Positions 4,357-30,210 of a DNA stretch of 64,000 nucleotides are shown piece by piece. Both the position numbers and the translations under genes were made by a program. The notes beneath the pieces were generated by a model. That model did no database searches. It saw only the letters and a program-made list of their open reading frames with translations, and had not been told where the DNA came from. This stretch comes from Owenia fusiformis. Lineage: Eukaryota; Annelida; Polychaeta; Sabellida; Oweniidae. The DNA lies in contig CAIIXF020000003.1 in the NCBI GenBank assembly GCA_903813345.2, forward strand, positions 4,797,815 through 4,861,814, given 5' to 3'. Position 1 is the first letter of the stretch. Every line of letters starts with the position of its first letter.

Positions 4357-4502
4357 TCAGAACACCTGAGTGAACCTACTTGAAGAGTGCTGCTTTACAT
4401 TGTTGGTACGCATATCAGATCCATTATGGGTCTTAATATGTGCTTGTAAGTTACGCTGAAGGGCAAATTCTTTGTTGCAGTGAGGGCATGAGTGCTTTGG
4501 AG
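4357..4502 (-). CDS. ZNF521/ZNF423: ZNF423/521-like gene, terminal coding exon
   Basis: The acceptor TATTTCAG ends at 4503. The first two bases CT complete the phase-1 codon left by the giant exon (G+CT = Ala). The translation APKHSCPHCNKEFALQRNLQ continues to A-H-I-K-T-H, a final canonical C2H2 finger. A hydrophilic tail of about 23 residues rich in Ser, Asn and Arg follows, ending in TGA at 4359-4357. The intron between this exon and 7827 is 3.3 kb. The short tail after the last finger fits a C-terminus. I infer this is the normal end, though alternative last exons cannot be excluded. The 3' UTR runs towards lower coordinates and meets the reverse complement of a family A element about 40 bases after the stop. 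Confidence 0.87.
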
Positions 4503-7826: not shown

Positions 7827-10752
7827 CCAATTCATGTTTGTTCATATGCTCAGTGAGGCTTGCAGAGGAGGGGAACTCATCAGGGCACTCTGTACATCTG
7901 TGCATGTTTAACTTATGAGAGACATACACCAGCTCAGATGCATCCCTAACATGATCTGAGTGGATCTTATAATGCTCCTGCAGTTCAGGCATACTTGGAA
8001 ATGATTCAGCACAGTGTGTGCACTTCATGCTCAAGTCTTGTCTCTCGTGGGTCCGCTGGTGATTTGTCATATCATTAAGGGTTGTAAATAAACGAAAACA
8101 TTCTGGACACTGGAATTGTTCACAAACACCCATAGCATGAGTAAACATGTGATTTTGAAGTTCAGCTGAGAAGAAGAATTTCTGATGACATTGTGTGCAA
8201 GAGAACTTTCTGGCACTGATGCTGTGTTCTAGGACATGTAGCTGTATAGCAGATGCCTTGAGAAATGTCTTATTGCAGATATAGCATGTCATTTCACCTC
8301 CCTGGAATGTGTGCTCCACCAGATGGCACTGCAACTTGGCAGGTGAATCAAAGGCACTGTTACAAATCTCACACTTGTGGAGGTTTCCCTCTTGAATCAT
8401 ATGGACAGCAACATGTGCCTGGATCTCCAGCTCAGTTGTGAAGGACTGCTGGCATTTGATACACTGGAAGTTTTTCTTGTGTGTCAATACATGTGCCTCT
8501 AACTGCAGTTGAGTCTCAAACTTCAAACTACACTGGTTGCAATTGTATCGTTTTGGAGGTTCACCATGGTAACAAGGCTTACATACATAGTATGATCGCC
8601 CACTAGTGTTGAGTTTAGAAACTAAGTTTTCCTTTGAGTCAAAACTGCTAAGACATACGCAGCATGTGTAGAAGCTGGATGGACTCTGGAAGTGATGTTT
8701 GGCATGCATCTGGACTTCTAACATAGAGGCAAGAGTTTGGCGACACACAATACACTGCGTCTGGCCTCCAGTGATTCCATGAAGTTGAGTATGGTTGTAG
8801 AAAATTTCCTCATTCTTGAGATTTACTTTACAAATGACACACATGTTCCCCTGGACCACCTTACAATGTGTGAGTTTATGTTCCGCTAGAATACTAGAGC
8901 TAGGAAATACTTCGTCACAAATATTACATTTCTGATTGCTTGGCAATGCATGGACTTTCATGTGCTTCTCTAATTCTCCTTTAGTCTTGAAGGATTGTTG
9001 ACAATAAACACATACTTGACTGAACTTATCTGGGAGCCCCAATATAGGAAGCTGAGGGGAAACCAAAGACGGGGTTGTTAAATTTTGTGGTACATGTAGC
9101 TGGGATCTTAAAATTGGTGATTTGGGATTTGATTGGGTTTCTGACATAACGGAAGGAGTTGGCATTTCATTGGCTTCAGCTGGGATGTGCCACACTTTAT
9201 CAAATGTTAATTTATGTTCCATGTTTCTATGATTCGTTAATGCAACCATGTCTGGAAATTTAATGTCACATATTTCACATTTACACATAGGGCTGAAATT
9301 TGGTGACACAGTTTTCTCTTTCTTAACGGTGTACCCTTCTTTAGATTGCAATTCTGTTTGCTTGGATTGGCAGGATTTAGGACTGTAGTCGATTATCTCT
9401 ATTTCATCTTCCTTTTCAATCTTTACTTTCAAGGGCTTAATCTCCTCTGGATTATGATTGGTCTGAATATGTTTATCGAGAAGGTATTCCACATGGAATG
9501 CTTCATCACATAAATGACATGGAAATTGTTTTTTATGGGTTGTCAGGTGGCACTGTAGTTCAACTTCACCTGTGAAACTCTCCTTACAAAAGAGACATCT
9601 ATATGGCTTAGAGATTCCAAGATGGTGGACCTTCACATGTAGCTGCCATTCCATCTCTGATCGGAATATTGACATACAGGTTGTACATTTATAAAGTTTA
9701 CATTCATTGCTATGCTTAATTGCAAAGTGGACCTGTACATTAACCTTTGAGTCAAAGATTTCCTTACAAAGGGAACAGCGATACAGATGATGTGCATGGA
9801 TGTCCATCAAATGTTTCTGAAGCTCATCTGGCTTTGTGAACAATTTAAGGCAGCTTGTACAACCATATTCTGTAGTCAAGGACAGGAAGTGGACTAAGAT
9901 GTGTGATTCCAGTTGCTCCTCAGTTGGAAATGGGGCATCACAATATGAACACAATAAGTTTGGTCCATCTATCATAGTCATCCCCTGATGCGACTTCATG
10001 TGCACTTCATAGGACTTTGTGTCAAGGAAAGTTGCATTGCAATGATCACATGTTAAGTTTGATGCTTTCGAATGTCTTAAAAGTCGTTCAATTTTGCTCT
10101 GTTTTGGAATGACATTATATGCCCCATCCACCTGGACTTTATCACCTTCTCTAGGTGATTTCATACTGAGGTTCATCCCATGGCTACTCTGTATGTGCTC
10201 ATTGAGGGCCACAGCACTAGTGAAGGCCATAGCACAGTGTGAACAAAACACATATTCACTACTTTTTGTTGACTTCATCTCAGCCATCAATTGTGCATGT
10301 CCTATCTCTTTATGCTGCTGCAATTCCTCTATTCTGCTGAAGTCCTGGCCACAGAATTCACAAGGGAACTTAATATTAAGTTCAGGCTCCTCACCATGTG
10401 CTTGCTGCAGATGGTCATTTAGGTTATAAATCGTCTTGAAGGTGGCATTACAAATATGACACACATGAGTTATCATTGGTTTCCCTGCATGCATTGTTCG
10501 CATGTGAATTTCTAGAACCTCTAACGTTGGGTATGTTTTTGTACAATATGGACATGTTTGTTTGTAGGATGTACTCAGATCTATTGCAGCATCTGACGTC
10601 ATTCTGCTGCTTTGTGACTGGCTAGAAAAGCTAGCCAATGAGGGTCCAGAATGAGAGTCATGGTGTTGTAGATGCTGGTATGATTCTTCCTCATTTTCAA
10701 AGGATTGAAAACAGACAGGACAAGTCTTGAACTTCTCTCTAGCTGCATGAAC
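7827..10752 (-). CDS. ZNF521/ZNF423: ZNF423/521-like gene, giant zinc-finger exon
   Basis: This is a 2926-nt uninterrupted exon (975 codons plus one base). It starts at GTTCATGCAGC after CTTCAG (10753-10754) and ends TTGG|GTAAGT at 7827/7826. It encodes about 25 fingers. They include C-P-Y-C near exon residue 67, a block of fingers at about 238-435, the family-typical segment EVFPSSSILAEHKLTHCKVV near 615-632, and an atypical C-x2-C...C-x2-C unit near 697-728 where the usual His pair is absent. That unit resembles the degenerate finger of vertebrate ZNF423/521 as I remember it. Two finger-free linkers lie at about 435-490, with a SUMO-consensus-like V-K-I-E, and 514-580, which is Ser/Pro-rich. 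No stops or frameshifts occur. One very large exon holding most fingers is also the vertebrate gene plan. The start of the exon is overlapped by a minisatellite (see 10747-11085). Confidence 0.93.
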
Positions 10753-11085
10753 CTGAAGTTAAAGGGTACACTTTACAAAACCTAATGAACCTAAATTAAA
10801 GGGTACACTTTACAAAAGAAAATGAACCTGAAGTTAAAGGGTACACTTTACAAAAGAAAATGAACCTGAAGTTAAAGGGTGCACTTTACAAAACCTAATG
10901 AACTAAAGTTAAAGGGTACACTTTACAAAAGAAAATGAACGTGAAGTTAAAGGGTACACTTTACAAAAGAAAATGAACCTCAAGTTAAAGGGTGCACTTT
11001 ACAAAACCTAATGAACCTAAAGTTAAAGGGTACACTTTACATAAGAAAAAGAACCTAAAGTTAAAGGGTGCACTTTACAGAACCT
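10747..11085 (-). repeat. 38-bp minisatellite that contains the exon's 3' splice site
   Basis: Nine units start at 10747, 10785, 10822, 10860, 10898, 10935, 10973, 11011 and 11049 (period 37-38). Read on the gene strand, a unit is a pyrimidine-rich stretch CCCTTTAACTTCAG followed by GTTCAT. That is the real acceptor plus the first six bases of the giant exon. Eight of nine units keep an AG at the acceptor position (CAG in three, TAG in four, GAG in one); the unit at 10935 has CAC. The true exon uses the most downstream unit. Confidence 0.88.
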
Positions 11086-12385
11086 ATCAAGAAAACAGCA
11101 ACTCCATGGAGTAGTGAATTCCACCGAACAAAACACGTCTTCTTGAGCAGAGCTCATTTTTTCTATAGGTATGGAATGAACATATAACATTTTGAGCCAA
11201 ATTCATCCCCTGGTATTTGAGTTATCAAAGATTATGTTTTTTTTTACAAAAATGGCAACCATTTTGAAATTCAGCTGCCATCTCAGAAATTTCTTCTCAA
11301 GCAGAGCTCCTTTGACCCAAGCAACAGCATATAAAATCTGAACCAAATCAGTCTACTGATATTTAGGTTATTAAAAATTACATTTTAATGATAAATGGTA
11401 GCTATGCATAGCTATGTATGTTTGTCCCTAGGCATCAACATATAAAATGTAAACCATATCCATCAATTAGCATTTGAGTTAACAAAGATTACATTTCTTT
11501 TTAACAAAAATTGGCAGCCATTTTGAAATTCAGCCGCTATTTTAAAAATCTTTCTCAAACAGAGCTACTGTGTCCCTAGGCATCAGCATATAAAATTTAA
11601 AAAAATCCATTTACTGCTATCTGAGTTATCAAAGCTTACATTTTTTAAACGAAAAATAGCCGCCTTTTGTTATTTAGCAGCCATTTTAAAGCTTTGCTTC
11701 AAGGTACCTTCTTTGTCTCTAAGCATCAGCATATAAAATTTGAACCAAATCCTTCAACTAGTATTTGAGTTATCAAAGATTACGTTAAGAAAAATGACTG
11801 TGATTTTAGCAGCCATTTTGAAAATCTCTTCACGGTAGCTCCATTGTTCTGAGGCATTAGCATATAGAATTTGAACCAAATCCGTTCACTGGTATTTGAG
11901 TAATAAAAGATTAATGTTTTTTACGACAAATGGCCGCCATTTTGAAATTCAGCCCCTATCTTGAAAATTCTTTCTTGAAAAATCTACTTTTGATTCTAGG
12001 CATCATCATATAAAATTTGAACCAAATCCATTCACTGGTATTTGAGTTATCAAAAATTACGTTTTTTAGGAAAAATCTTGATATTTTAAAAAACTCTTCT
12101 ACAGCATAGCTCCTTTGTCCTTAGGCATCAGCATATACAATTTGAACCAAATCTGTCAACTAGTATTCAAGTTGTCAAAGATTACATTTTTTACGAAAAA
12201 GAGTGGCCATTTTAAATTAAGAGGCCATATTGAAAATTCCTTCTCGAGCACAGAGGTTTTATCGCCATAAGTCTATAAAATTTGAATCAAATCTGTCAAC
12301 AGGTATTTGAGTTATCGCCCAGACAAGCGGATGGACGGACGGCTTTGCTATATCCCCCTCGAACTGTGTTCAGTGGGATAATAAA
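11086..12385 (+). mobile_element. Family E Helentron-like element, near complete
   Basis: Head: AAAACAGCAACTCCATGGAG with ...ATTCCACCGAAC near 11130. The core has about seven units of roughly 140 bp, each with GCATCAGCATATAAAATTTG, ACTGGTATTTGAGTTATC and a GCCATTTTGAAATTCAGC-like block. A short RGAC run at 12313-12342 follows, then the tail TATATCCCCCTCGAAC...GTTCAGTGGGATAA. The tail arm GTTCAGTGGGAT pairs with the head word apart from two differences. Confidence 0.72.
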
Positions 12386-12797
12386 TAGTACCGTGGGTAC
12401 TGGGCTCACAAAAGTGAATTTCCCCAGACAAAAATGGCGACCATTTTGAAAATAGGCGAGCTTTTGAACCAGGAGTCATATGGGAGTTTTCTGTATTGAT
12501 GTTGAACGAAAATAACTTAAAACGGGAATCCTATAGACACAGGTTTTAGAGCAAATGGCCCAGAAGTGAATTTCGCGAGACAAAAATGGTGGCCATTTTG
12601 AAAATAGGCAAGCTTTTGGACCAGGAGTCATAGTTTTTTTTCTTTATTGATATTGAACAAAAATCAATCCTTTTGGCAGAGGTTTTAAACAGGCCAATTC
12701 TTGACAGACGGACTGACAGACAGACAGACAAACAGACAGACGGACAGACAGATGGACAAGTGAGTGATTGCAATAGCATACCATGTGAGCTAAAAAG
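12386..12797 (+). mobile_element. Family F Helentron-like element
   Basis: Head region GTGGGTACTGGGCTCAC near 12391. The core has two copies of a unit with GTGAATTTCSCSAGACAAAA and CCATTTTGAAAATAGGC. A clean RGAC array (GACAGACAGAC, GACGGAC) runs at 12702-12755, and the tail ACCATGTGAGCTAAAAA ends at 12797. CTCAC in the head pairs with GTGAG in the tail. Confidence 0.6.
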
Positions 12798-12850
12798 CAG
12801 CCATCTGAAAATTTCTTCTTGAGCAAGAGGAGGGAAAGCCCCAGAGCTTT

Positions 12851-13044
12851 AGAGATGACAGACATAATTACATCTCTTGCTTACCACCTTCGTTTGTTCA
12901 AATTTTCACAGGCTTATTTCCAAATACTACACTTCGATCTGATGTTTAGAGATGACAGACATAATTACATCTCTTGCTTACCACCTTCGTTTGTTCAAAT
13001 TTTCACAGGCTTATTTCCAAATACTACACTTCGATCTGATGTTT
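12851..13044. repeat. Perfect 97-bp tandem duplication
   Basis: 12851-12947 and 12948-13044 read the same base for base, from AGAGATGACAGACATAATTA to TTCGATCTGATGTTT. This indicates a very recent duplication or an assembly effect. The flanking sequence is unique. Confidence 0.85.
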
Positions 13045-14042
13045 TAATTGATGTAGGCATATTCCATACACCTATCTTTATCTTGATGCCAAATAAGAAG
13101 CTATGATATTGGTTAATACGGCAGAAATGAAGTGTATTTCGAAAATTTGGAAGCCACCATTTACACGAGGGTAAAGTCTACCCGTGTACATACAACCTAC
13201 CGCCGAGCAAGACACGCATATACCGCCTATCAAATGTTTGGTTAACTACATCACATAGGAAAATGGACAATAAAGTTAATATTGGACCTCTATCAATTCC
13301 CTTGGATGGTTAGAATCGTTACTAAGATGTTCTAGCAGGCGGAATTGGCCTAGAATTATAGTTGAAATACATTTGTTATGTCCAAATTAAGAGATAAGTT
13401 AACGTATAATGGTTTTCGATTTGTTTTTCTCATTCATACTCGCTTTAATTGATAATGAGCCATACATAAGACATATTTGGGCCGGTAAATGTATGTCATA
13501 TGTATAATATATTAAGTGTCAAAATATTAGGTCAAAATAGCACTTTTGAACAGCAAAATCTTCACATAAACTTTGTCCTAAAAGATCCGATGTTATCGGA
13601 CATCGGACCCGATGTGATCGACGAGTAATATTATAAAGATCTAAAAATATCTTGAGTAAATGATCTCAGAATCCGAACATTACTTGAGTAAAATCTGTTG
13701 AGATCCGATTATATCGTCGAGTCTATGACATGCTGATGATGAAATAGTGTTAGTGTTACTTTTGGGAGTTTTTGAACCTTGATTTAATTGCCTTTATTAG
13801 AAGGGTTACTCGTTGTTAATAGTATTGTAAGATTTTGACCTAGACTGACACAACAGAAATTAGGCTATCAACATTGGAGGATAGGAAAAGCGCGGAATTG
13901 CGTTTATATCAATTATGAATATGATCTTTCTTTTTTTTTTTATATGTGATTTATTTCATAGTAAAATAGAATTATTACATACACATGTTGTGGCTTTGCA
14001 ATGAAGCATTATAAGCCACAATTAAATAATAACAAGATTTAA
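13045..14042. other. Intron sequence with no feature recognised
   Basis: AT-rich sequence without coding signal. At 13580-13720 the words GATCCGAT and ATCGGACATCGGACC recur, perhaps a repeat remnant. A T-run lies at 13930-13942. Confidence 0.3.
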
Positions 14043-15103
14043 ACCAGAACAACGGCAACGCCAAAGCGTAGCGAATCCCATCGAACAGAAATGGCTGGCA
14101 TTTTTACAAACGAATAGCAAATATCATAAAACAGCACACCAGAAAGGCCACCATTTTCAAACTGGTTGCTCACTAGCCAAGTTGTCATCAGAAGAAATAA
14201 TATGCTTTTAAGTAGCCACCTCTAAAATTTTTGAAAAATCACACACGTACTTGTAAAATAACACACATAAGAACAACGGCAACGCCAAAGCGTAGCGAAT
14301 CCCATCGAACATTTTTCAAAATGGGCACCTTCTACCAAAAGTGTCATTAGACAGTGTGCCATGCTTATAATATTCACATACCAATATGAACGAAATCGCT
14401 CTACTACTTTTCCAGTTATAGTAAAATACGTTAAAATGGTGGCTATTTTGAAAAATGGCCGCCTTCTACCAAAAGTCTCATTAGACAGTGTGCCATGCTT
14501 GTAGTATTTACATACCAAATATGAACAAAATCGCTCCACTACTTTTCGAGTTATAGTAAAAAACCTTTAAAATGGCGGCCATTTTGAAAAATGGCCGCCT
14601 TCTACCAAAAGTGTCATTAGACAGTGTGCCATGCTTATAGTATTCACATACCAAATATGAACAAAATCGCTCCACTACTTTTCGAGTTACAGCAAAAATC
14701 GTAAAATGACGAGTAAAGGCCGCCATTTTTCAAGATGGCTGCCATGTGCTTTTTTAATATCTACATTTCTAGCTTTATTAATGTCCTATATAATTTTTTT
14801 ACATTTAAAACATATTGCTATTACAGTTTTACATATTGCACCTAAATTACTGTAAAATCGGCACTAAAATGGCCGCCATTTTTAAATGAGCGGCCATTTT
14901 GAAAATCGGCTTTCGAGCAGAACTTCTACCCCCATAGGGTATATGTGTACAAAATATGAATAAAATCGGGCCAACGGTATTTGAGTTATTGCCCGGACGG
15001 ACGGACGGTCGGACGGACGTACGTACAGACGTACGTACGTACGGACGGACGGACGGACGGAGGCGTTCCCTATATCCCTCCGAACTTCGTTCGATGGGAT
15101 AAA
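14043..15103 (+). mobile_element. Family B Helentron-like element
   Basis: Head CAACGGCAACGCCAAAGCGT, then AGCGAATCCCATCGAAC, occurs twice (near 14050 and 14275). Core units of about 135 bp contain CCTTCTACCAAAAGTGTCAT, GACAGTGTGCCATGCTTATA and TTTTCGAGTTATAGTAAAAT. The (GGAC)n array is at 14995-15062. The tail CCCTATATCCCTCCGAAC TTC GTTCGATGGGATAA ends at 15103. The final arm GTTCGATGGGAT is the exact complement of the head word ATCCCATCGAAC. Confidence 0.8.
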
Positions 15104-16226
15104 AATGCAGTGTGGCAAATAAGAGGTCGCCAAACGCCAAAAACAGGGAGTGAAAAAAATTTGGCGATAGAAGTTGCGATCTATCTCGACAATTTTGGCG
15201 TTGGATGTTAGATCAATTAAACTTTACAGTTTTTATCCCCGACATTCTTGAAAAATGAAGTTTCATAGTTGATCCTATTCCCATTCACAAAGCTTTTTAT
15301 TCTACCTAAAACATGATCAGAATAGAAGAACATAAAGCCACCTACCTTTAATAGAGAAGAACAATTTGAAGTAAAATAGCCAGATAATCATCAGTATTTA
15401 GAAAAAACACTGAAAAATCATCTAAATTTTGCCGTGAGTAGGCAGGAAGTTAGCCTACTCAGAGGTAACAATTTTGGTATTGTATTTGTATTGATCGCAC
15501 TGCCATCTTTATAACTTATGAAAAACTGTTGAGTCAAAATTCATTTATAACAACCAGATACCTGTCTAGAACTCCTTGCACATTTGATTCCTTTATTTAT
15601 TTATCCTCATTAGACTAAAAAAAGTTCATGATGTTCATTTTAAAGAGGTTTAATTCAAAAGATGCTACATTTTCAAAATATTGATCTCTCCAAACTCTGA
15701 AATAAAAGCTTCTTTGATGATACATACTCTAGCAGTATAGCCTAATACAGTAAAAACTGTCTTAGTGAACACCTCTCTCTAGTGAACACCTGTCCCTAGT
15801 GGACACCCTTCCTACGCACATAGTCCACTGACTTTGTATAAATTACCCTCTCTCTAGTGAACACCTACTGTCCTACAGCGATCGTTTTTTCGTGGCAAAA
15901 AATGTTCACTATACACAAGTTTTACTGTAACACAATTTTCTTTATCTATATTGTTAGTACATACAACTCTAGTATAGACAGTTGATCAGCTCTGTCTAAT
16001 TTACCCTCAAAAAATTATGAGTAAGATTTTTCCAACCTACCTACCTGCCCCTACCTGCCTACCCCAAATCTGAAATTTCATTGATCAGGAAACAGACATG
16101 TGTGGCCTTTCCACTTATTTTAAGCAGTTTAATTTACCATTCGCAATTCATGCACAGTTTAAGATGAGGGCAAAAATGCCGACTAGACAAAATTATGGCC
16201 AGACGAAAAATGTTTTGGCGAGAGTG
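15104..16226. other. Intron sequence, minor short repeats only
   Basis: No coding signal. Words of the type TCTAGTGAACACCT recur four times at 15765-15870, a short degenerate array. The rest is unremarkable AT-rich sequence. Confidence 0.3.
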
Positions 16227-16346
16227 TTTCAAATGCTCCACTACTTTTCGAGTTATAGTAAAATATGTTAAAATGGCGGCCATTTTTCAAAATGGCCACT
16301 GTCTACCAAAAGTGTCATTAGAAATAGACAGTGTGCCATGCTTATA

Positions 16347-16377
<31 letters not shown>

Positions 16378-17673
16378 GGTACAAATAAATACATATTCTA
16401 AAAACCACCAGCCGATGTCGGCTTATGAGACACTGGACTTTAAAGGTCAATAATAACAGTGTTTAAATAGATATGACATTCAACAATAAAACTACAATTC
16501 ATCTACAAGTACGTTAATGCATAGATTGATAAATATTAATAATTCCATCTATAAGTGATGATAAATGATTTACATCTTGTGAGATAATGACTAGATTCTT
16601 GACTACAAAATGGTGTGGAGGTTAGGCCCTCACTGCAATAAATACAATACATAGGAATAATATGGCAAATTATTATACTGCAGTCAACCGTTCCAGGTCA
16701 AATTGCCTTTTCATGAACATTTTGTATAACAGAGCAGCCTACTGTCTCTGAATTGATCTTGAATGCATTAGGCTTATAAATAAAAGTAACTCATTGTCAG
16801 TGTTTGTTCTTATATGTGGTGTTAAAATATCAGTTACAGTTCTATAAAAATGTGTTCTCAAGTTGGAATAATGTTTACATTGGACAGCAAAATGAATTTC
16901 ATCTTCAACAAAGTTACCATCACATAATTTACATGTACGATCATTTAGTGCTGTATTTGACCAACGACCTGTCTCAATGTGAAGTATTCACATACCAAAT
17001 ATGAACAAAATCACTCTACTACTTTTCGAGTTATAGTAAAATACATTAAAATGGCGGCCATTTTTCAAATTTTCAAAATGGCCGCCTTCTACCAAAAGTG
17101 TCATAGGACAGTGTGCCATACTTATAGTATTCACATACCAAATATGAACATAATCGCTCCACTACTTTTCGAGTTATAGTAAAATATGTTAAAATGGCGG
17201 CCATTTTTCAAAATGCCCGCCTTCTACCAAAAGTGTCATTAGACAGTGTGCAATGCTTATAGTATTCACATACCAAATATGAACAAAATCGCTCCACTAT
17301 TTTTTGTGTTATAGCAAAAATCGTAAAATGACGAGTAAAGGCCGCCATTTTTCAAGATGGCTGCCATGTGCTTCTTTAATATCTACATTTGTAGCATTAT
17401 TAATGTCCTTTATAATTTTTTTACATTTAAAACATATTGCTATTACAGTTTTACATATTACACCTAAATTACTGTAAAATCGGCACTAAAATGGCCGCCA
17501 TTTTTAAATGAGCGGCCATTTTGAAAATCGGCTTTCGAGCAGAACTTCTACCCCCATAGGGTATATGTGTACAAAATATGAACAAAATCGGGCCAACGGT
17601 ATTTGAGTTATTGCCCGGACGGACGGACGGAGGCGTTCCCTATATCCCTCCGAACTTCGTTCGATGGGATAAA
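16227..17673 (+). mobile_element. Family B element, split by a LINE end
   Basis: This copy lacks the head. It carries core units at about 16230-16350 and 16981-17340, the GGCTTTCGAGCAGAACTTCT segment, a short GGAC array at 17616-17630, and the complete tail ending GTTCGATGGGATAA at 17673. The core is interrupted at 16350-16980 by a minus-strand retrotransposon fragment. Confidence 0.75.
16350..16981 (-). mobile_element. 5'-truncated LINE 3' end inside family B
   Basis: A T-run at 16350-16377 on the plus strand is a poly(A) tail read in reverse. The 5' end of the fragment, next to 16980, encodes DRTCKLCDGNFVEDEIHFAV, then Q-C. This is the C-terminal C-x2-C-x8-H-x4-C knuckle of CR1/L1-type LINE proteins. 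A stop and a 3' UTR of about 450 bp follow. AGTAT flanks both sides of the insert (CTTATAGTAT left, AGTATTCACATACC right), consistent with a short target duplication judged against uninterrupted family B copies. Confidence 0.72.
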
Positions 17674-17893
17674 AAGAAAGTATGACAATGGATTTGCAAT
17701 AGACAAAAGAATTATTGTGTTCAAAATTATAAAGTTGGTGGTGGAAGAAATACTTACACGCTTGCACACCTTTGAATAAAAGCTGAGGTGAGCTTTAAAA
17801 TTTCAATATTAACTTCTTTTGGCAGACAACTGTCTCCATACAAAAACAATGATAATTTGTCTTGCTGGTTTTTAAATGCTGGGTAATTAAAAT

Positions 17894-20800
17894 TTAGAAG
17901 AGTAAGTGCATCCTCTTAATCTTTAAGATATTGTGATCTAAGGTTACAAGAGAACATGACATGAATGGATGTTTCATTGCTATACCCACATTTGCATGTA
18001 GGGGATTATATACATTAGTAAATTTGTGGGTGTAAAAATGGGACCGGAAGATAAGATCACAGTGCACCTTGTTCAGAGAAATTTCTTGGCTCCTTGTCAA
18101 GGAGATCTCAGAGGAATTAATAATGATATAAGTAGTCATTAATTTTTTCTTTACATTCGATTTAAAAATATTTAGATTTGGTGATTCTTTAATTTCGGGT
18201 GGGAGAGACTCCCAGTCAATGATGGATTTAAATATGCATGATCTATTTGAAAATGTTGAGGTTTTGATTGGAATTTGGTAGTCACAACTTCTTCGTGTTA
18301 TTGATGGAAGATTTCTACGATATTGATTAAAAATGCTCAAAACGTAGGATGGAAGTTTATTGTTGTAAGCTCGGTACATTAGGAAAAGTCTATGCATTTG
18401 TCTTCTATCAGATAGCTTTGGCCAATTTAAGCAGTTAAGGACTTTTGTTGAAGATGTTCCATGTAGTACACCTGAGCAAATGCAGGCTGCTTTGTAGTAT
18501 AATTGATCAATGGATTTTAATTTACTTATATTTGCACAACCATAAAGAATATCGCAATAGTCGAAAATTGGAAGTATGAAAGATTTGAAGATTAATTCCA
18601 GGTGTTTTCCATTTAATTTGTTGCTTAGAGATTTAAGTGGGTTTAATAGTTTATCAATCCTCTTGGTGAGCTCTGTGATGTGTTGGTCAAAAGTTTGGTG
18701 TTTGTCTAGTATGAGGCCTAAATGTTTATGATGATCAACTCGAGGTAGAACATCATTACCAATTTTGAGGTCAGGAACGTTATATTCACATTTCCTTGGG
18801 TTTGAGAAAATTATGTCTTTGCTTTTAGAGGCCTTAAAGTTCATTTTCCATGTCTGGGACCATTGGAAAATTGAATTAAGATCAGATTGTAAAATTTTGT
18901 TACTTTCAATGAGATTTGATTTGGAATATGGTTGGTATAGAGATGTGTCATCTGCATAAATATAGCATTTGCTTGATAAGGTTTCAGGGAGATCATTTAT
19001 ATATATCAGGAAAAGTAGTGGTCCAAGAATAGAGCCTTGTGGAACGCCAGCATTTATATAATCCTCATCGCTCAAAACAGACTCTTGACCATCAAGGATA
19101 ACTTTTGCTTGTCTTTTAAAGAGATATGATGCTAAAAGTGATAGAATACTTGGGCCAATTCCATAAGATTCAAGTTTTTTTAGTAGCAAAGAATGAGGTA
19201 AGGTGTCAAACGCAGCTGAAATGTCTAAATAAACCCCCCTTACATTTCCCCCAGATTCTATTTCATTTGTTATAAAATCAATAATGCTTAATAATTGAGC
19301 ATGAGTGCTGTGCCCTGGCAGAAACCCACTTTGAAGATCGTAAAATAGGTCATTTGATAGTAGATGGTCAAATAATCGTTTGAAAATGATACGCTCAGCT
19401 ATTTTTGAAATACAACAAAGGAGCGTGATTGGACGGAAATTTTGAATATTAGATTTATCACCCTTTTTATGAACAGGTAAAATATGTCCAATTTTCCATT
19501 TTTGAGGAAAGGCTTGAAGAATAAACATTTTGTTGAACAGTTTAGATAAAATGGGAGAGAGGGCTGGTGCTGCCATTTTTAACATTCTATTACTTATCAT
19601 GTCAGGGCCGGTTGCTTTATTTATGTTTAATGAAAGTAGTATTTCAAAAATCTCGGATTCATGGGTCGAAAGTATGTCAATTTGATTTGGAGTTCTGAGA
19701 TTCAAAGAAATATTTCCAACTTCTCCATCTAAATGAGTTCTTTATGAAGTGTTCCAAAAATAAGTTTGCCTTTTCATTGCCTCTGGAAATACAATTTCCA
19801 TTGTGGTCAAACAAAAACGGTATTTTTGAATTTTTAGATCTTCCCAAAAGTTTTGATATGATGGACCAATAAGACATGCTTCCATGTTTATACGAATTGA
19901 GCTTGTGCCACAAATTTGAATCATGAATTTGCTTAGCTTCCTCTATGGCATTGTCAACTATTCTGCATTGTTCATTGTATTTTTGAAGGTAGGTCAAGTT
20001 ATGGGTTTTCCTAAATTTATAATGTAACTTATTTCTTTTATTTATCAGGGTTTTAATTTTGTCATTAAACCAAGGTTTGTCAGTGGATTTGAATTTAATT
20101 ACTGAGTTTGGGATCAGGTCAGAGAAAGTTTTCAAAAGGTTATCGCTAAGCTGTTCCACAAGGTTATCAATATCATTTACCGATTCTATTAACTGTTCCA
20201 AATTTGCTTCGCGTATTGTACTTGTATTGTATTGTACTTTTTAGTAATGTAATATCTGTTTTGGAATAGTACCAAATCCGTCTTGAGTATGGCGCCTCTT
20301 TCAAAGTAGTAAAACAACAGTCAGTAGATAAAGTACTATGATCTGTGTATCCAATTGGAGGTTTAACTGTTGTATTGCTTATTTGATCGGGGTTGTTTGT
20401 AAATAAAAGATCAATACATGACCTACTTAAATTTGTAACTCGTGTCGGCTTCTATCTATAAGTTGAAAAAGACCTAACGACTCTGAATAATCATATAATA
20501 TTTTACCTGCTGAGTTTTCATTATTTAATGCCCACCAGCTTTTACACCTGGCATTAAAATCACCTTTTATCAACATTAAGTCTATTTTAGAGTGAAGCAA
20601 TTTACTACATGAATGGAAAATCTACTAAAAAAATCCTGAGTCTCAGCTTTGTTTTGAGATGGTGAACGATAGTATGTGCCAAAAAGAATTGATTTAAAAT
20701 TGATTTTAACTTCCACCCAGATAGAATCACCAAAGTCATTCATGCAGTCATGCCTAATTTTAAAAGGAATATCTTCATGGATATAAACTAATAAACCACG

Positions 20801-20980
20801 ATTTTTATTTAAATAGACTGGTGCATGGAATCCATCAATAGAATAGTTATGTGAAATTTCTTCACTTGAAAGGTTTCCAACTTCACACAAACCAATAATT
20901 TTACTATTGTTAATATGTATATGATCTTTTAAAGCACTAAATCTGCTATTATCATTTGCTTGATCATGATCTTTCTTCAT
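17894..20980 (-). mobile_element. CR1/Jockey-type LINE, ORF2 region
   Basis: Endonuclease N-terminal part at 20980-20582 (NNSKIIGLCEVGNLSSEEIS, GLLVYIHED). The endonuclease end near 20450-20380 reads TNLSRSCIDLLFTNNP, then GYTDHSTL. Linker at 20201-19677. Reverse transcriptase at 19705-17894 is a single open frame of over 600 codons with FRPITLLCCISKIAERII, VYLDISAAFDTLPHS, GVPQGSILGPLLFLIYINDL and YADDTSLY. The element is broken: there are frame breaks near 20455, between endonuclease and linker, and near 19700. Another lies near 18000, where the C-terminal knuckle C-K-C...H...C is in the next frame. No ORF1 or poly(A) was seen. The long intact RT suggests moderate age. Confidence 0.88.
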
Positions 20981-21461
20981 TTTAGGAGCCGTTGTACTGA
21001 TATTTTAGTCAAACTTGAGAGCGAATGAATTGCATTTAAATCAATTATTATCCATATTTATGGATAAAAATGAATATATGCCACGTTCCTAATCTCTATT
21101 GGTCAATCTTTTTTCATTTTAGTAGCCTTTCTACTGATATCTTATTCTATTCAATATTGAGATCGAATGAGCATAACAGGTAAACTTTGCACATTTTAGA
21201 CCAATCAAAATATATATTTTAACTATTTTTATATATAATAACTATTTTTCATATGTTTACCGTCTTGGTAGATACAAAATAACACGTACCAAACTCATTG
21301 GATTATGAGCATAGTCAGATAGAAGTGGTGATATCATCAACAATGAAAATTGAAAGCATGAATTCAATGTTTTAAAGAACTTCGCGGGACACAGACATTG
21401 ACGTAAAGTGCTGCGGGAATTATATCATATTAACAGGAATATTTGTGATATACTTCATGTT
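20981..21461. other. Sequence beyond the LINE 5' side
   Basis: Two diverged copies of a unit of about 130 bp (TTTCATTTTAGTAGCC..., TACTGATAT, GAGATCGAATGA) begin near 20970 and 21110. They may be the LINE promoter or 5' UTR repeats on the minus strand. No protein signal. Confidence 0.35.
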
Positions 21462-21576
21462 CAAAGTTGTTGATTTTCTTTCTCAGAGATATTTATTTAT
21501 TCTATTTTTTTTTATCAAAAAAAAATAAAATATAAAAATAAATAAATATCTCTGAGAAAGAAAATCAACAACTTTG
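21462..21576. repeat. 115-bp near-perfect palindrome
   Basis: CAAAGTTGTTGATTTTCTTT...CAGAGATATTTATTTAT is mirrored by ATAAATAAATATCTCTG...AAAGAAAATCAACAACTTTG around an AT-only centre (T-run then A-run). A single hairpin of about 50 bp per arm can form. It is probably a foldback MITE. No target duplication was found. Confidence 0.75.
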
Positions 21577-22796
21577 TACATTACTACCAGAGAGATGAAC
21601 ATTCATAGAAATACTTCATGTTATTATATGATCATTCGAAAGCTTACTCACTACCTCATCGGGGTTTTACTCACGGTATAATCGGAATACTCAGGCGGTA
21701 GCATTGGGTCCTATTGAATCGTACTGATGGTATAATCATTTTCAACTTCCACCGGTGATTTCAATGATATGCAACGTATGGCAGTGAAACAAATGTAATA
21801 TACGAGGGGTGATCAATAAGTAATAGACGCTTTTTTACACAGATGCTTTTTATGGACCAATCCCTTCGATTTTCTGACCAGTGATACATCATTCAATTAT
21901 CTATCAACTCTGAAGATTTGAAAACAAAACATGTAATATATTTTGATATATCTTTATTTCCGTGAAGGATGTGTAGGTACCCCGGGACCGACATGACGTC
22001 AAACATTCTGAAGCTACAGTATTTTAGCTTGTTTAACATGCAATGCAGTTGAATGTAGGCTGAACAAAACAAACCATTATGGTCATGAATTACCTTATTT
22101 TGTTATGCCATAGTTGATTTTGAATATTTTATCATCACTATGTGGTATTCATGCCACATTCATTCAACAGGGCCCTCTACATGGGTTCCATCAAGTGCTA
22201 CATGTACACAATTCCTCATCCTCTTAACTCAAGATTGTGAGACAAGGCTGAATCCATTTTCTGACATGGTAGCAAGATGCAGTTGCACACTGACAGGTTG
22301 TTTTATTTCATCAATGGCAATAAACCTGCGTCCTTTCTCTATAGAAATAAGTAGTATAGAAATGAATAAGTCACATGTGAGCAGGTCTGGACAATATGGT
22401 GCATTGGCCAAGGGCTCAATTTTGAGGTCCAGGGATATTGTTTTCTAAACATTTTGAGATCTGTGGGCAGGTGCATTGTCCATATGGAGTAGGGTGTTCC
22501 TTTCTCTCACCATCCCTTTCTTCCACAATGCTTTCTCAAATTGACCTGCAAACCCCTTCCATTCAACACTCTGACATCACAATACTTTCTGTTTATGTGT
22601 TACCAGTCAGCGAAAAAGTTCAAACAACACAACACTTGTTGCATATAAAAAGTTCAAATCTAACTGAAATTTGCCAAACTGGCTAAAAAGTGAATATGTG
22701 ACGTAAATGTCGGTCCCGGGGTAGCTGTACCTCCATCACGGAAATAAGGATATATCAACATATATTATATATTTTGTCTTCAAATCTTCAGGATTG

Positions 22797-23795
22797 TCAA
22801 TCAATACGGTGGCGGTGGCGGTAGGCATATATTTTTGTGAGTCATCATGACTCAGGTAGTTTCAAAAAAGTGAGTCACAAGAAAAAAAGTTGAGTCAAAG
22901 CTATAAAAGTGTTTTTCTTGAGTAAAAATGCTTACAAAATGTAGAAACCACATACAAAATCTATTTTTTGATTTTGGGCATTACCTTTTATTGTACTCTT
23001 ATAGCACATTAACAACTAACAATTAATTAATTAGGCAATTGCAAGAAAAATGTCACTATTAATCATCTGATTATCTGGTCCAGCGAGTCATGGGTGTGAA
23101 TGGAGTGGGAGAGGAGTTTCTCCCTGTGTGGAGTTACACAAATTGACCCAATCAGCCTGGGGAATTACACTTTGCGATGGTCCTTCATTGCCACAAACCG
23201 TCGGGGAGGTGGCATGCCTCGTAAGACTTGACCTTTGGAAATCAGTACTTCCCCTGAGTGAGGCAAATACATCTGACTTGTTTGCTCTCGTGCACACAGA
23301 GCACCTCATACCAGTCACCGCTGCTGGGGCAGCATCTGGTGGCACTGTTGTTACCCATCTGAAAACCTCCACCCATTTAGCGAGAAACTGCCTCACTACA
23401 GGCATTTTATTGAATTTTATTTTATTTGAATTTTATTTGACGTTTTCAAAAGCTTCCCGCCACAAACATGGCAACTTCTGGGAGATACACTCACGCCACC
23501 TATAGAACTGAATAAAAATCTTGAATCCCGGGAATCTATCTTGAAAAGCTGTTTCATTTGTTGCGTAGGAAGGAGGCTCGATTGCGCTGAACGAAATGTT
23601 AGATTTCCAGAATTAGCAAAATTATAAATTTGATCAATCACGTTTTTTCACATATAGGGATCAATTTAACCAAGTACCAAGCGGGGATTTGGCATGTGAA
23701 ACAAACGTGCATCAGAAAGACTCGGTAGACAATGAATATTTGTGTCAGAGTTGCAAAAATGTGAGTAAAAAACGTAAAAAATTGCGTTAACCTCT
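22797..23795. mobile_element. About 1-kb insertion in the mariner right TIR
   Basis: It separates two pieces of the right TIR that are contiguous in the left TIR (CTGAAGATTTG next to TTGATAGATAATTG on the opposite strand). It holds a GGTGGCGGTGGCGG start, AT-rich ends and a GC-richer middle with an intact ORF at 23405-23088. No terminal repeats or duplication were clear, so the insertion mechanism is unknown. Confidence 0.6.
23088..23405 (-). pseudogene. ORF with TTF/BED-like zinc-finger start, likely gene or transposon fragment
   Basis: A 105-codon ATG-initiated frame. WVEVFRWV is followed by GMRCSVCTRANKSDVFASLR and FQRSSLTRHATS. The order W-x2-F-W...M-x-C-x2-C...F...L-x2-H is the layout of TTF-type zinc fingers in ZMYM and hAT-related proteins. 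The last part (after about residue 75) is not recognisable. Base composition is richer in G+C than its surroundings. It could be an exon of a captured host gene, the N-terminus of a hAT-like transposase, or chance. No downstream domain was found. Confidence 0.4.
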
Positions 23796-23902
23796 GATTG
23801 ATAGATAATTGAATGACGTATCACTGGTAGGAAAATCAAAGGGATTGGTCTATAAAAAGTATCTGTGTAAAAAAGCATCCATTACTTATTGATCACCCCT
23901 CG

Positions 23903-24300
23903 TATTTGCACCTATTGTATCTTTGAATCAAATGGAGTAAATACAGCCATGGTTCTTACTTATTTAAGATGTAAAACATCATTCTAATGTTTAGAAGTTG
24001 AATTTAGCGATTTGATAGTAAATATTGCATTAAGTACTCATTATTCTCTAAACATGAGTGCCTGGAACAACAATTATATCGGTTACAAACAATTCTGTGT
24101 TTTATCTATTTCTCAGATTGAGAAATTCAATATAAAACAGGAGTTTATTAACTTATCCCCTACATTTTCAGACCCAATCAGAGATGTACAGTATGTCATC
24201 TCAATACAGGTTTACATTTAAGCGCTTGTCATCTTTGAACTCTAATGTTAATACCCCTCTGTTCTTGAGCAGAGCTCCTTTATCTCAAGGCATCAGTAAA
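23903..24300. other. Short unremarkable intron stretch
   Basis: AT-rich with no coding signal. A fragment GAGCAGAGCTCCTTTATCTC at 24269-24288 is the family E/C core word just ahead of the family C head. Confidence 0.35.
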
Positions 24301-25092
24301 CTAGATAACGGCAACTCCGCGGAGTAGCAAATCCCAACGAACAAAATATCAATTACCGAATTCCAATCAATAATACTCATTACTTTGGTTGAAAATGAAA
24401 AAATTAGATTTTAGAATTGCGAATTCCTGCAAAGCAGCCATTTTGAATTTTCTGAGGTACAAATCTGAAAAATAATACCATAATTGTGATCTACTCCAAA
24501 ATTCCTTCAATTTGAGTATAATATAGCCATACTTTGAAGGGATCGAAAAATTATTGCGAAATCGTACATTAGACGGCCATTTTGAATTTTACGAGGCTCG
24601 AATCAGAAAAAAGATACAATATTTGCAATCTACTCTTAATTGCCTTTCATTTGAGTATAATAAAGCTATACTTCAGAAAGATCTAAAAATAAGCGAAAAT
24701 TTCTGTTTTCCTGTCCCCCCATACATGGCCCCTGGGGGTCGGGATGAAAAACACAGAATATATGTGAGATAGATAAATGTTGTGAATACACTACCAAAAT
24801 TTCAAACAATAATATTAATTACTTTGGTTTAGAATGAAAAATTTATGATTTTTGCGAAAAAGTCCCGTCATTTTTAAAGCGGCGGCCATCTTGAAAAAAA
24901 TTTTTTTGGCGTAAAACTATTCACCAATATACATCTTTCCACTAAATATGAAGAAAATCTGTCAACTAGTATTTGAGTTATCTTCCGAACAGACGGACGG
25001 ACTGACTGACAGACGGACGGACTGACTGACGGACAGACGGACGGACGGAGGGCTTCACTATATCCCTAACGAACTTCGTTCGTTGGGATAAT
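24296..25092 (+). mobile_element. Family C Helentron-like element, complete and compact
   Basis: Head AAACTAGATAACGGCAACTC then ...AGCAAATCCCAACGAAC at 24298-24343. The core has two units with AGGCTCGAATCAGAAAAA-like words. The RGAC array (GACGGACGGACTGACTGACA) is at 24990-25048. The tail CTATATCCCTAACGAAC TTC GTTCGTTGGGATAA ends at 25092. Head ATCCCAACGAAC and tail GTTCGTTGGGAT are exact complements, where family B has TCGAAC/GTTCGA. This is the best copy for studying the family. Confidence 0.8.
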
Positions 25093-25544
25093 AAAATTTG
25101 AACCAAATCCTTCCACTCACTGGTATTTTTTAAAAATGAAAAATGGAGGCTATTTTGAAATTCAGCTGCCATCTTGAAAATTACCTCTCAAGAAGAGCTT
25201 ATTTGTCCCTAGGCATCAGCATATAAAAGAATCTAGTGCACTCTTCATTATGATTTCCCCATAACAAAAATTCATCTGCTTTTTCAAAATGAATATACTG
25301 CTTTTATAATAACATTTATGTGTACACTAGTATCTTGTTGACCTATATTCAGCACTGTATTGATGAATGGGCCACTTATTAGGGCCAATATTCAATCATA
25401 AAGATGCCAAACCAGAAGTCTTTGTGTCTGTCAAAATCCATTTGCATCCTACACATCCCTACATCTTATCCAAATATGTTATTAATTAATAAAATAAAAC
25501 AAAGACACAAATGTGTAGAAAATGTCCCCACCAATGGGTGGTCC

Positions 25545-27148
25545 CAGACTTGCCAACCTCCCGTTTTTTTACGGGAATCTCCCGTAAATTTTTTGTTTTT
25601 CCGTAAAAAATACCAAACTCCCGTACCGTTTTCTCCCGTAAAAACTCCCGTAAACTCCCGTACCGTATTTCTACTAAAATCTCCCGTAATTTTTTTTAAA
25701 AATATGGCCGTAAAATCTCCCGTATTTTTGCTGAAATCTCCCGTATTCTGGAGTAACTCCCATAAAATCTCCCGTATGCTTGGTATAACTCCCGTAAAAT
25801 CTCCCGTTTTCTGGTATAACTCCCGTAAAATCTCCCGTATTCTTGGTATAACTCCCGTAAAATCTCAGTTTTTTGCTGTCGAAATCTACCGTATTTAAAA
25901 GGAATTTGACAAATTTGTGACCTTGATTATTGCAGGCGCGCTTCTTTCTTTTACTCCAAGAAGGTTGGCTCCCATGGTTCACTATCGATACTTTCATAAA
26001 TAACTTAAAAGTACTTCATTCCCATGATTCAAATTGCTTTTCTGCGATCAGTTCGGTATAAGTTTGCACAGCAAATGTCTGCAAACGGGGGCCAGTTCAT
26101 ATTCTGTCATACTTCTGTCGGGAGAATACATTTTGTTTTTATATGGCGCTAAACAAAATATTCCCGCAATATAAGGCGCATTATGGGTAGGGACTGCTGT
26201 GAAATAATGAACGTAAGTGACATCTATCTTAGATTATAAGTTCTAATTAATTTATTAACTGCGCATGCATCATAATAATTTCAAATGCTCATAAATCTCC
26301 CGTTTTTTCAAAATGTAAAGTAAAAACTCCCGTTTTTTCAGAAATCTACCGTAAAAACTTACGTTTTTTCAAAATTTACCGTAAAAACACCCGTTTTTTC
26401 AGAAACCTACCGAAAGAACTCCCATTTTTTTCCGAAATCTACCGTTAAAAACTCCCGTTCTTTCAAAATCTACCTTAAAAACTCCTGTTTTTTCAAAATC
26501 TAAAGTAAAAACTCCCGTTTTTTCAAAATCTACCGTAAAAACTCCAGTTTTTCCGAAATCTACCGTAAAAGCTCCCGTTTTTTCAGAAATCTACCGTAAA
26601 AACTCCCGTTTTTAAAAAATCTACCGCAAAAACTCCCGTTTTTTCAAAACCTACCATAAAAACTCCAGTTTTTTCAGAAATCTACCGTAAAAACTCCTGT
26701 TTTTTCAGAAATCTACTGTAAAAACTCCCCGTTTTTTTTAAATCTACCGCAAATACTCCCGTTTTTTCAAAACCTACCGTAAAACTCCCTTTTTTCAGAA
26801 CCTAGCGCAAAAACTCCCGTTATTTCTGAAATCTTCCGTAAAAAAGTCACGTTTTTTTAAATTTACTGAGAAAAATACCTTTTTTAAAAAATCTCCCGTA
26901 AAAACTCCCGTTTTTTCAAAATCTCCCGTAAAAACTCCAGTTTTTTTCAAAATTTACCGCAAAAACTCCCGTTTTTTTTAAATCTCCCGTAAAAACTACA
27001 GTTTTTTTCAAAAATCTCCCGTAAAAACTCCCACTTTTTTTCAAAAAACTCCCGCAAAAACTACCGGATTTTGAAAAAAACTCCCGTAAAAGTACCGCAA
27101 TTTTTTTTAAATCTCCCGTAAATTTTTCATTTTAGGTTGGCAAGTCTG
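25545..27148. mobile_element. TIR-bounded element filled with a CCGTAAAAACTCCCG minisatellite
   Basis: The ends CAGACTTGCCAACCT (25545-25559) and AGGTTGGCAAGTCTG (27134-27148) are perfect 15-bp inverted repeats. The interior is about 35-bp variants of CTACCGTAAAAACTCCCG then TTTTTTCARAAAT, in two blocks (25560-25890 and 26285-27130). They are separated by about 400 bp of unrelated sequence. There is no transposase. The CAG-initial TIR would suit hAT, but no 8-bp target duplication is visible. Confidence 0.8.
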
Positions 27149-28770
27149 TGATCCTGTCAAATGGTTATCCTGAAAATGAGTAGACAAGACTTTACCGACA
27201 CAATTTGAGGACGGGAAATCCAAATGGCTACCTTAAATTTTAACAGAATGCCATAAAATTACTCAGTTCTAGATTGTCATACTATGAACCACCCCAGAAA
27301 ATTTGAAATTGATCTGTCAAACAGTTAACCAGAAAACGGGTAAACAAGACTTTACAGACAAGATTTAAGGATGGAAAATCCAAAATGGCTGCCTTGAAAT
27401 TTACCCATAATGTCAAAAAACTAATCAGTTCTAGATTTTCATACTAAGAATCATCCCTGAAAATTTAAAATTGATCTACCAAACGGTTCACCCGAAAACG
27501 CGTAGACAAGACTTTACTGACAAGATTTTAGAACGGAAAATCCAAAATGGCTGCCTTGACATTTACCCAAAATGCCAAAAAACTAATCAGATCTAAATTT
27601 TAATACTAAGAATCATCCCTGAAAATTTGAAATTGATCCACCAAACGGTTCACCTGAAATGCGTAGACAAGATTTCACTGACAAGATTTTAGGACGGAAA
27701 ATCCAAAATGGCTGCCTTGACATTTACCCAGAATGCCAAAAAACTAATCAGATCTAGATTTTCATACTAAAAATCATCCCTGAAAATTTGAAATTGATCT
27801 ACCAAACGGTTCACCTGAAATGCGTAGACAAGACTTCACTGACAAGATTTTAGGACAGAAAATCCAAAATGGCTGCCTTGACATTTACCCAGAATGCCAA
27901 AAAACTAATCAGATCTAGATTTTCATACTAAAAATCATCCCTGAAAATTTGAAATTGATCTATCAAACGGTTCACCTGAAAACTTGTAGACAAGACTTTA
28001 CTGACAAGATTTTAGGACGGAAAATCCAAAATGGCCACCTTGACATTTACCCAGAATGCCAAAAAACTAATCAGATCTAGATTATTGTACTAAGAATCAT
28101 CCCTGAAAATTTAAAATTGATCTACCAAACGGTTCACCTGAAAACGTGTAGACAAGACTTTACAAACAAGATTTTAGGACGAAAAAATGCAAAATGGCAG
28201 ACAATAAAAAAGTGATAATGAGTTTTTGCTGATTTCTTTTTACAAAATTATCACATATAACTACCATTAACAATAACATAGGCTTTTACAACAAAGTACA
28301 CCTGAAAGTATTTATAAAGCTACAAAATAGTTAAAGTATGAAAACTCAAAAACACCATTCAATATGATACAAAGTATTATCGCACGCTAACTTTTCTTAA
28401 GACATTAAAAATGGCTGCCATGACTGAGCTAACAGGTCCAAAACCTAATCAGATGTAGAATGAAGTGAGCTGAACAAGATGTTAAAGTTTGAAAAGCAAC
28501 TGTGAAGCCGTTTTCCTTAAAGTTTGTGGACAAGGATTTTAGCATTTTACTTCAAAATGGCCGACAGGAAGTAGGTATCGAGTTAAAAAATTTTCATCCA
28601 CATCTGTATGCACTCATAAGTTATCCCTGAAAATTTGAACATTTGGTGATATCTGTAGTGGTTTTGGAGAAAACTGCCAGACGTACAGACAGACAGACAG
28701 ACAAACAGACGGATGGACGCGCCTAGGCCGACAATATGGCCCCACACTATGTGGTGGGGACATAACAACA
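27149..28770 (+). mobile_element. Family A Helentron-like element
   Basis: About seven core units of roughly 161 bp start near 27185 and recur to about 28154, with AGACAAGACTTTACTGACAA, ATCCAAAATGGCTGCC and TGAAAATTTGAAATTGATC. A unique 3' body shared with 3780-4250 follows. The RGAC array is at 28687-28718, then GCCGACAATATGG and the hairpin CCCCACACTATGTGGTGGGG, ending ACATAA near 28767. The head is not obvious because the TIR-minisatellite abuts it on the left. Confidence 0.75.
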
Positions 28771-28905
28771 GTATAACCTTTGGATTTACAAAGTTGTATG
28801 GCTTCCTATTTGCACATCTGATGTGATATACCATTTGTGTCATATTGTGAAACTAGACAACAGCAACGCCAAAGCGGAGCAAATCCCATCGAATTGCCAT
28901 GGCTG

Positions 28906-29623
28906 TAGAGGTGTAACTCCCGAGTCCGTAACTCGAGTACAGCTCATCAGAGCTGCCTATACATTGCCTCGAGTTGTCCTCTAGAAACTCGCAGTCTATT
29001 TCAACTCGCGAGCTAGCTATTACTCGAGTTTTGCCTATCTTGCAAACTTTTCAAACGAATTCGGGTCCCAGAGGTCGTGCAACATTACTTCATTAGGAGA
29101 ATAAATATACCAATGATCGCCGTATTTAGCGCCCGTCACCTTAAAAAACACTCTCAAAGCTTTACATAAAAAGATGATCTATAATTAAATTAAGATCATA
29201 AGTCATAACTTTAGATCGATATCCAGCAGTCTTTAGTAAAAATAATGAAGATAATCCGGGAAAACCATTCATTAATTTGAGGGGCCCTTCTGGGTTTTCT
29301 AAAATATTGTTTGGTTAGATTCTTGGTTCATTTTAGCGATCTCTAGTCCTTACCGTATGCGGCGACGTCTATACCAGATCGTTTTTGATTGGAATATGAG
29401 ATAACTGCAATGAATACCACACTTTCTTATGGCCCCAACGTGTTAAACAGCTTTTAGATTTGACTAAACCAGAGAAACTTGCTGCTAGAAGTTACAGTAA
29501 TTTTGTGTACCCGGGTTTACAATATGTACTGGACGAAATGAATTAACTCAAGTTTTACTCAATTTTTGGAAATATTTGGCAAGTTGAACTCGAGTTCGAT
29601 TTTTCTGGCAAGTTACACCTCTA
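28906..29623. mobile_element. hAT-type non-autonomous element with exact 8-bp target duplication
   Basis: The TIRs TAGAGGTGTAACT and AGTTACACCTCTA are flanked by CATGGCTG on both sides (28898-28905 and 29624-29631). The 8-bp duplication and the TAGAGGTGTAAC-type terminus are standard for hAT. Subterminal ACTCGAGT-like words recur near both ends. It is 718 bp with no transposase. Confidence 0.9.
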
Positions 29624-30210
29624 CATGGCTGGCATTTTTACAAAGAAAGTATGTAGCAAAAATTGCAGCCATTTTTCAAAATGGCCACCTTCTACCAAAA
29701 GTGTCATTAGACAGTGTACCATACCAAATATGAACAGAATCACTCCACTACTTTTCGAGTTATAGTAAAATACATTAAAATGGTGGCCATTTTTCAAAAT
29801 TGCCGTCTTCTACCAAAAGTGTCATTAGACAGTGTGCTATGCTTATAGTATTTACATACCAAATATGATCAAAATCGCTCCACTCCTTTTTTGAGTTACA
29901 GCAAAAATCGTAAAATAATGAGTAAAGGCCGCCATTTTTCATCCGGGTTAAAATTAAATAAACAGAAATCAGAAGCAATATGGTTAGGCAATAAAAAAAT
30001 TTGTGTTGAAAAACCAGTAAACATCAAATGGAATATTTTCCCTAATAATAAGATTAAAATATTAGGCATAACATTTTGCACAACCAATAAGGTGGTTGAA
30101 TTAGATGAGATTATTGACTGTAAATTCAAGAAATGTGAAGAAATAATGAAAAGATGGGCAGGTAGATGTTTAACCATGTTTGGTAAAATTACTCTCGTAA
30201 AATCACCAAT

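Follow-up and report, generated by a model that had tools for sequence, protein, structure and literature searches.

A splice acceptor carried in a mirage-type minisatellite at an intron-exon boundary of an annelid zinc-finger gene

Within the window, a stretch of 64,000 nucleotides from the annelid Owenia fusiformis, a very long exon of a zinc-finger gene begins at the edge of a minisatellite whose repeat unit contains a 3' splice site. The locus raises the question of whether the copied acceptors compete with the acceptor of the exon, assist it, or are by-products of the way in which the array grew. A first-pass annotation had placed the array and proposed that its copies act as decoys that lower or tune productive splicing. 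The features are collected in Table 1.

The acceptor of the exon had to be located before its copies could be judged. Joined in phase 0, positions 34467 and 10752 give a reading (with VHAAREKFKTCPVC) in which GTTCAT, coding for V-H, completes a CX2CX12HX4H finger. Because this join restores a C2H2 finger, the acceptor was fixed at 10753, and by sequence the terminal array copy is the authentic boundary. The first-pass annotation had thus called the acceptor correctly, and it was right that the array ends just after the codon of a zinc-binding His. On its other side, the exon joins in frame to the predicted last coding exon. Pfam finds C2H2 finger models and related ones on the gene, and the best match among PDB sequences is ZNF568; the gene looks like an invertebrate relative of ZNF423/ZNF521. 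The large intron also holds a reverse transcriptase ORF (PF00078, E 6.5e-32; window 17894-19741).

Table 1. Features of the zinc-finger gene and its array, in window positions; a slash marks a splice boundary
Feature	Position	Strand	Remarks
Zinc-finger exon, 2,926 nt	7827..10752	-	ORF matches Pfam zf-C2H2 (E 2.7e-54); donor GAATTGG/GTAAGT
Upstream coding exon	34467..34797	-	TTTGTAG/GTCTGAC ... CCAGG/GTATGT; 5' limit predicted by reading
Intron, 23,714 nt, array at its 3' end	10753..34466	-	
Downstream coding exon to stop codon, predicted	4357..4502	-	TATTTCAG/CT...HSCPHCNKEFALQRNLQAHIKTH...QVF-stop
Acceptor AG taken as functional	10753..10754	-	First exon base 10752; phase-0 join to 34467 restores C2H2 finger
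Mirage-type minisatellite	10747..11085	-	Unit holds the acceptor with the intron tail before it and the first six bases of the exon
Decoy AG (G at 10828)	10828..10829	-	Same sequence as real acceptor, -20 to +6
Nearest decoy AG (G at 10791)	10791..10792	-	Tract shortened by one base; third codon is an in-frame TAG
Distal-edge AG	11084..11085	-	TTGCTGTTTTCTTGATAG/GTTCTG; outscores real site in both matrices; third codon is an in-frame stop
Best-placed branch-point-like A	10786	-	TTCAT, -34; presumably from exon-derived GTTCAT of neighbouring unit

The array is made of about nine units of 37-38 bp. TRF reported it at 10747-11079 with a period of 38, 8.8 copies and 88% matches, in agreement with its earlier placement, and a period of 113, equal to three units, outscored the period of 38. 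When split on the minus strand, it yields eight full units (six of 38 bp and two of 37 bp) and a terminal piece of 30 nt entering the exon. The unit reads TGTAAAGTG(Y)ACCCTTTAACTT(N)AG/GTTCAT and is followed by a variable joint (TAGGTTT or TTTCTTT). The AG is kept at the acceptor position in 8 of the 9 units, the unit near 10941 carrying AC, and GTTCAT or a close variant follows in 8 of 9, so that both the boundary and a splice signal lie inside the unit. The composition given by the first-pass annotation (acceptor, tract and six exon bases, joined to the exon exactly at the sixth base) was recovered in the units, as was its count of eight AGs, which includes the real exon-attached site beside seven decoys. 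Variation among columns is greatest at the base preceding the AG (T 4, C 4, G 1). A 29-base core pattern, allowing up to 3 mismatches, matched 8 times in the window and never in any of 100 shuffles; being ungapped, the pattern misses the ninth unit (decoy 10791), which carries a deletion. Differences between units averaged 2.0 bases at a lag of three units, compared to 4.3-5.0 at lags 1, 2, 4 and 5. The lag-3 differences are 1, 1, 1 and 2 inside the array versus 5 for the distal edge unit, a pattern of inner homogenisation with a divergent edge, and the lag-3 similarity is a mark of recent block-wise turnover. Other tandem repeats are present in the window: two 97-bp units in tandem, matching at 100%, within the same intron (12848-13044), adjoining arrays of a 30-bp unit (~26 copies, with CTCCCGT) and a 162-bp unit (6.4 copies) at 26293-28198, and a 59-bp array of ~43 copies with 92% matches at 61055-63581.

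The acceptor might have been brought in by a dispersed repeat or a transposon. The whole assembly (498,259,871 bases in 525 contigs) was searched with the 29-base core at up to 3 mismatches, and all of the 8 hits fell in this array; the reversed control pattern gave 0 hits in the whole assembly. A DNA search with the whole array, which leaves simple repeats and highly frequent words aside, returned one match. An origin from a dispersed or transposon-borne acceptor was rejected at this level of mismatch, the unit being found at this locus only. A unit that covers the boundary and has no match at other loci is most likely of local origin, copied from the boundary, and did not import the acceptor. 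At the distal edge, TTGATAGGTTCTGTAAAG has the look of the single-copy stretch of intron with which duplication started; judging from the joint GTTCAT/TAGG, the breakpoint may lie at a shared AT.

The zinc-finger array is a real structure, and of a type that is already known. Amphioxus mirages are minisatellites spanning an intron-exon boundary; in the accessible parts of the papers they are described in Adh3 and the globin genes BflGb6 and BflGb9 (PMC3087553), with TnC and PGBD5 as further cases (PMC3902484). Units are 10-72 bp in Adh3 and 150-160 bp in BflGb6, where they comprise the 3' end of an intron and the 5' part of the exon, whilst BflGb9 has its array at the other boundary (PMC3087553). 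The likeness extends to tandem copies across the boundary, to splice signals kept in many repeats and to concerted evolution with distinct edge units (PMC3087553, PMC3902484). The amphioxus cases differ in being from cephalochordates and in that haplotype and somatic length variation and RT-PCR are reported for them, whereas the Owenia array belongs to an annelid, has units of 37-38 bp with six exon bases only, and is known here from its sequence. A tandem duplication that crosses an intron-exon boundary is also described, in the text available, for a potato RdRp gene; there, the duplication became a new intron, whereas the zinc-finger copies lie in an old intron and the sign of a new intron is absent (PMC4974935).

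We favour, with a probability of roughly three in four, a mirage-type minisatellite in which repeated tandem duplication crossing the boundary was tolerated as the exon-attached copy stays functional. A short duplication would have taken in the last ~32 intron bases and six exon bases, and the array would have grown by slippage or unequal exchange, lately in three-unit blocks. The 3'-most acceptor (10753) would stay functional and serve most or all mRNA. The upstream copies would be by-products, mostly acceptor-like, whose occasional use would lead to an early stop and mRNA decay. Such an array may persist because each such duplication leaves one copy attached to an intact exon. The anatomy, the phase, the uniqueness of the unit (up to 3 mismatches), the three-unit higher order and a second gene built alike all support this reading.

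Two known systems bear on how such a gene would be spliced. According to the accessible text on amphioxus, Adh3 data and globin RT-PCR suggest to the authors that regular splicing is unimpeded (PMC3087553). The second is the human ABCA7 intron-18 VNTR, a 25-bp array of ~12-427 units with a splice site in the unit at the exon edge (PMC5954066). The portion of that study available gives retention of one unit as 2 +/- 1% in the tissues quantified, independent of length in cell lines, and skipping of the next exon as length-dependent (PMC5954066). As in the zinc-finger gene, use of a neighbouring unit gives a premature stop (PMC5954066); unlike it, the ABCA7 array is a donor-side mirror image of an array lying at the acceptor. 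Judged by the amphioxus mirages and ABCA7, the zinc-finger gene is therefore likely to be spliced correctly for the most part, decoys being used at trace level, and normal splicing is probably left intact.

Use of an upstream copy would indeed have consequences. Read in the phase of exon 34467, decoys 11055, 11017, 10979, 10866, 10828 and 10791 meet a stop at codon 3 or 6, and decoy 10903, in which one G is missing, at codon 23, so that an in-frame stop lies behind all seven AG-bearing decoys. The two cases translated in the first-pass annotation (10785 and 10822, positions that correspond to exon-like base six in decoys 10791 and 10828) do both stop. As a coding exon exists downstream, these stops are candidates for nonsense-mediated decay.

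The strength of the acceptors was scored with two matrices derived from the myosin exons of this genome, a first one keeping 15 of 31 junctions (from 76 of 92 matches) and a second one, from a looser alignment, keeping 18 of 30 (from 58 of 92 matches). The real site lies in the mid-range of left-one-out acceptors, above 10 of 15 with the first matrix and 8 of 18 with the second; the matrix is rough, as the acceptor of the KIF4-like gene described below scores -1.3 in it and 161 of the 3,438 minus-strand AGs of the window equal or exceed the real site. Decoy 10866, which differs from the real acceptor by one base between -20 and +6, scores similarly, decoy 10791 scores low (-0.3), and the distal-edge AG reaches 8.1 compared to 7.2 for the real site (6.4 compared to 5.3 with the second matrix). 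Strength alone fails to single out 10753, because 10828 ties with it and 11084 outscores it. These same features, a 26-base identity between 10828 and the real acceptor and the higher score of 11084, count against copies that are by-products, as does the AG closest upstream of the real site past -12, whose G lies at -19. Correct acceptor choice would have to rest on the branch site, the exon context or the order of the sites. Masking of the intervening AGs by a hairpin was rejected: the two unit types fold at -2.0 and -3.8 kcal/mol, no better than base shuffles (189/200 and 61/200 of them were at least as stable).

An array maintained by selection, in which upstream acceptors compete with 10753 and set the amount of productive mRNA, would draw on seven decoys that each carry an in-frame stop, on two of them that score like the real site, on the distal-edge AG that scores above it, and on the coding exon that makes the stops premature. 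Its AGs were compared to a neutral expectation. With a minor-state rate of 0.066 per cell outside the AG columns, 7.85 of 9 AGs are expected without selection and 8 of 9 were observed, in a crude test on nine related units that ignores their shared descent. AG retention matches this simple neutral expectation and gives no sign that selection maintains the decoys. The variable base before the AG and the weakness of decoy 10791 likewise lend no support to the earlier proposal that the array lowers or tunes productive splicing, and in the accessible text amphioxus mirages are reported without disturbance of splicing (PMC3087553, PMC3902484). Tuning by decoys is possible but unsupported by these sequence comparisons, and we consider a selected decoy array unlikely.

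The copies may instead assist the real site. Two branch-like motifs lie within its reach, TTCAT (-34) and TTAAT (-44), and both fall inside the array; the A at 10786, in the former, is a candidate branch site. Repeated branch sites and pyrimidine tracts would then offer extra landing places for U2 snRNP and U2AF, with the exon selecting the last AG, an arrangement that would suit a 23.7-kb intron followed by a very long exon. Set against this, yTnAy is a weak motif that arises by chance, and at 11084 the intron, still in single copy there, already resembles an acceptor, so that we regard a helper role as improbable.

Lang and Spritz, and Reed and Maniatis, reportedly built constructs with tandem or competing 3' splice sites. 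Those constructs resemble the array in placing acceptors in series after one donor and differ in being engineered; the near-identical natural acceptors behind one donor amount to a living-gene version of constructs engineered to test 3' site choice. In the competing sites of Reed and Maniatis the upstream one was favoured across an intron, as told in the accessible text of PMC9225289, and such a preference would predict decoy use. For exon definition, the same source gives a proximity rule acting across the exon (PMC9225289).

The second gene came from a kinesin search of the genome, which gave 18 matches at ~159-bp spacing on contig C2 (C2:23266200-23269900). The gene is KIF4-like (best PDB match KIF4, E 1.4e-42), and its array has 17.9 copies of a 159-bp unit with 97% matches. 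Each unit combines the end of the intron with the acceptor CCATAG and 127 nt from the start of the exon, and the last copy runs into the exon. The longest word shared with the zinc-finger array is 5 bases, no longer than in shuffles; the two arrays are independent cases with unrelated units. A second independent locus of the same build also speaks against the possibility that the zinc-finger array is an assembly artefact or reflects collapsed haplotypes. A draft amphioxus mirage was reported, in the text available, to be aberrantly assembled (PMC3087553), but the array here is 339 bp with private variants in its units and a three-unit order, and we find an artefact scarcely credible.

The KIF4-like array bears on a further alternative, that short isoforms are made on purpose, ending ...HISRVHFLL-stop after decoys such as 10828 and ...KIKNKPVAL-stop in the KIF4-like gene. 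All 18 of its acceptors are intact, and the KIKNKPVAL-stop was present in each of the four upstream copies read through (of 17). Changes among the copies were 8 synonymous and 2 non-synonymous, compared to an expected synonymous share of 22-27% (P 0.0001-0.0008); without the changes private to the functional copy the numbers are 6 and 2 (P 0.002-0.007), and with a linked pair merged 5 and 2 (P 0.007-0.019). Variation mostly at synonymous sites is unexpected of inert copies and counts against the mirage reading, and mainly synonymous change is what translation of upstream copies, if it occurs, would produce. The pattern would be no different, though, if turnover drew on the functional copy of the exon, and we favour this over translation of some copies; the events are few, the changes are shared among copies and hence not independent, and in the zinc-finger gene the stops fall ~2.9 kb upstream of a later junction. 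Purposeful short isoforms seem very improbable to us. We also hold it to be quite unlikely that upstream copies are usefully spliced and translated as domain-terminating isoforms, with mirages forming a recurrent spiralian class whose arrays offer 9 and 18 acceptors.

No earlier report of mirages in annelids was found in searches of one open-licence library, where the mirage papers found concern lancelets or lancelet data, and the accessible part of an earthworm paper on intronic minisatellites contains no copied splice sites (PMC12783039). Mirages may extend beyond lancelets to spiralians, and the two arrays suggest that boundary-spanning minisatellites are spread wider than cephalochordates. 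The presence of both, with 9 and 18 copies, in a single genome allows acceptor choice to be read from ordinary RNA-seq.

Exon arrays were further surveyed with six Pfam profiles, the matches being judged by eye: PF00063 (92 matches), PF00225 (144), PF00270 (52), PF00005 (25), PF00069 (144) and PF00071 (153; judged among the matches listed). The survey scored part of the first-look candidates (124 of 876 for PF00069, for example) and is blind to arrays with few exon bases, such as the zinc-finger one; among the scored, listed matches of these families, a regular tandem exon array was present in PF00225 only. The PF00063 matches included a cluster of exons at irregular spacing, and those of PF00069 an exon pair resembling ordinary alternatives. 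A muscle myosin heavy chain-like gene (C9:37985700-37994700) carries 12 copies of one motor-domain exon and variants, apparently alternative. At C10:2256200-2258200, two diverged kinase exon copies (LYMYQLLRSLAYIH... and LYMYQLFRSLSYIH...), presumably GSK3-like, lie 178 bp apart and are likely mutually exclusive.
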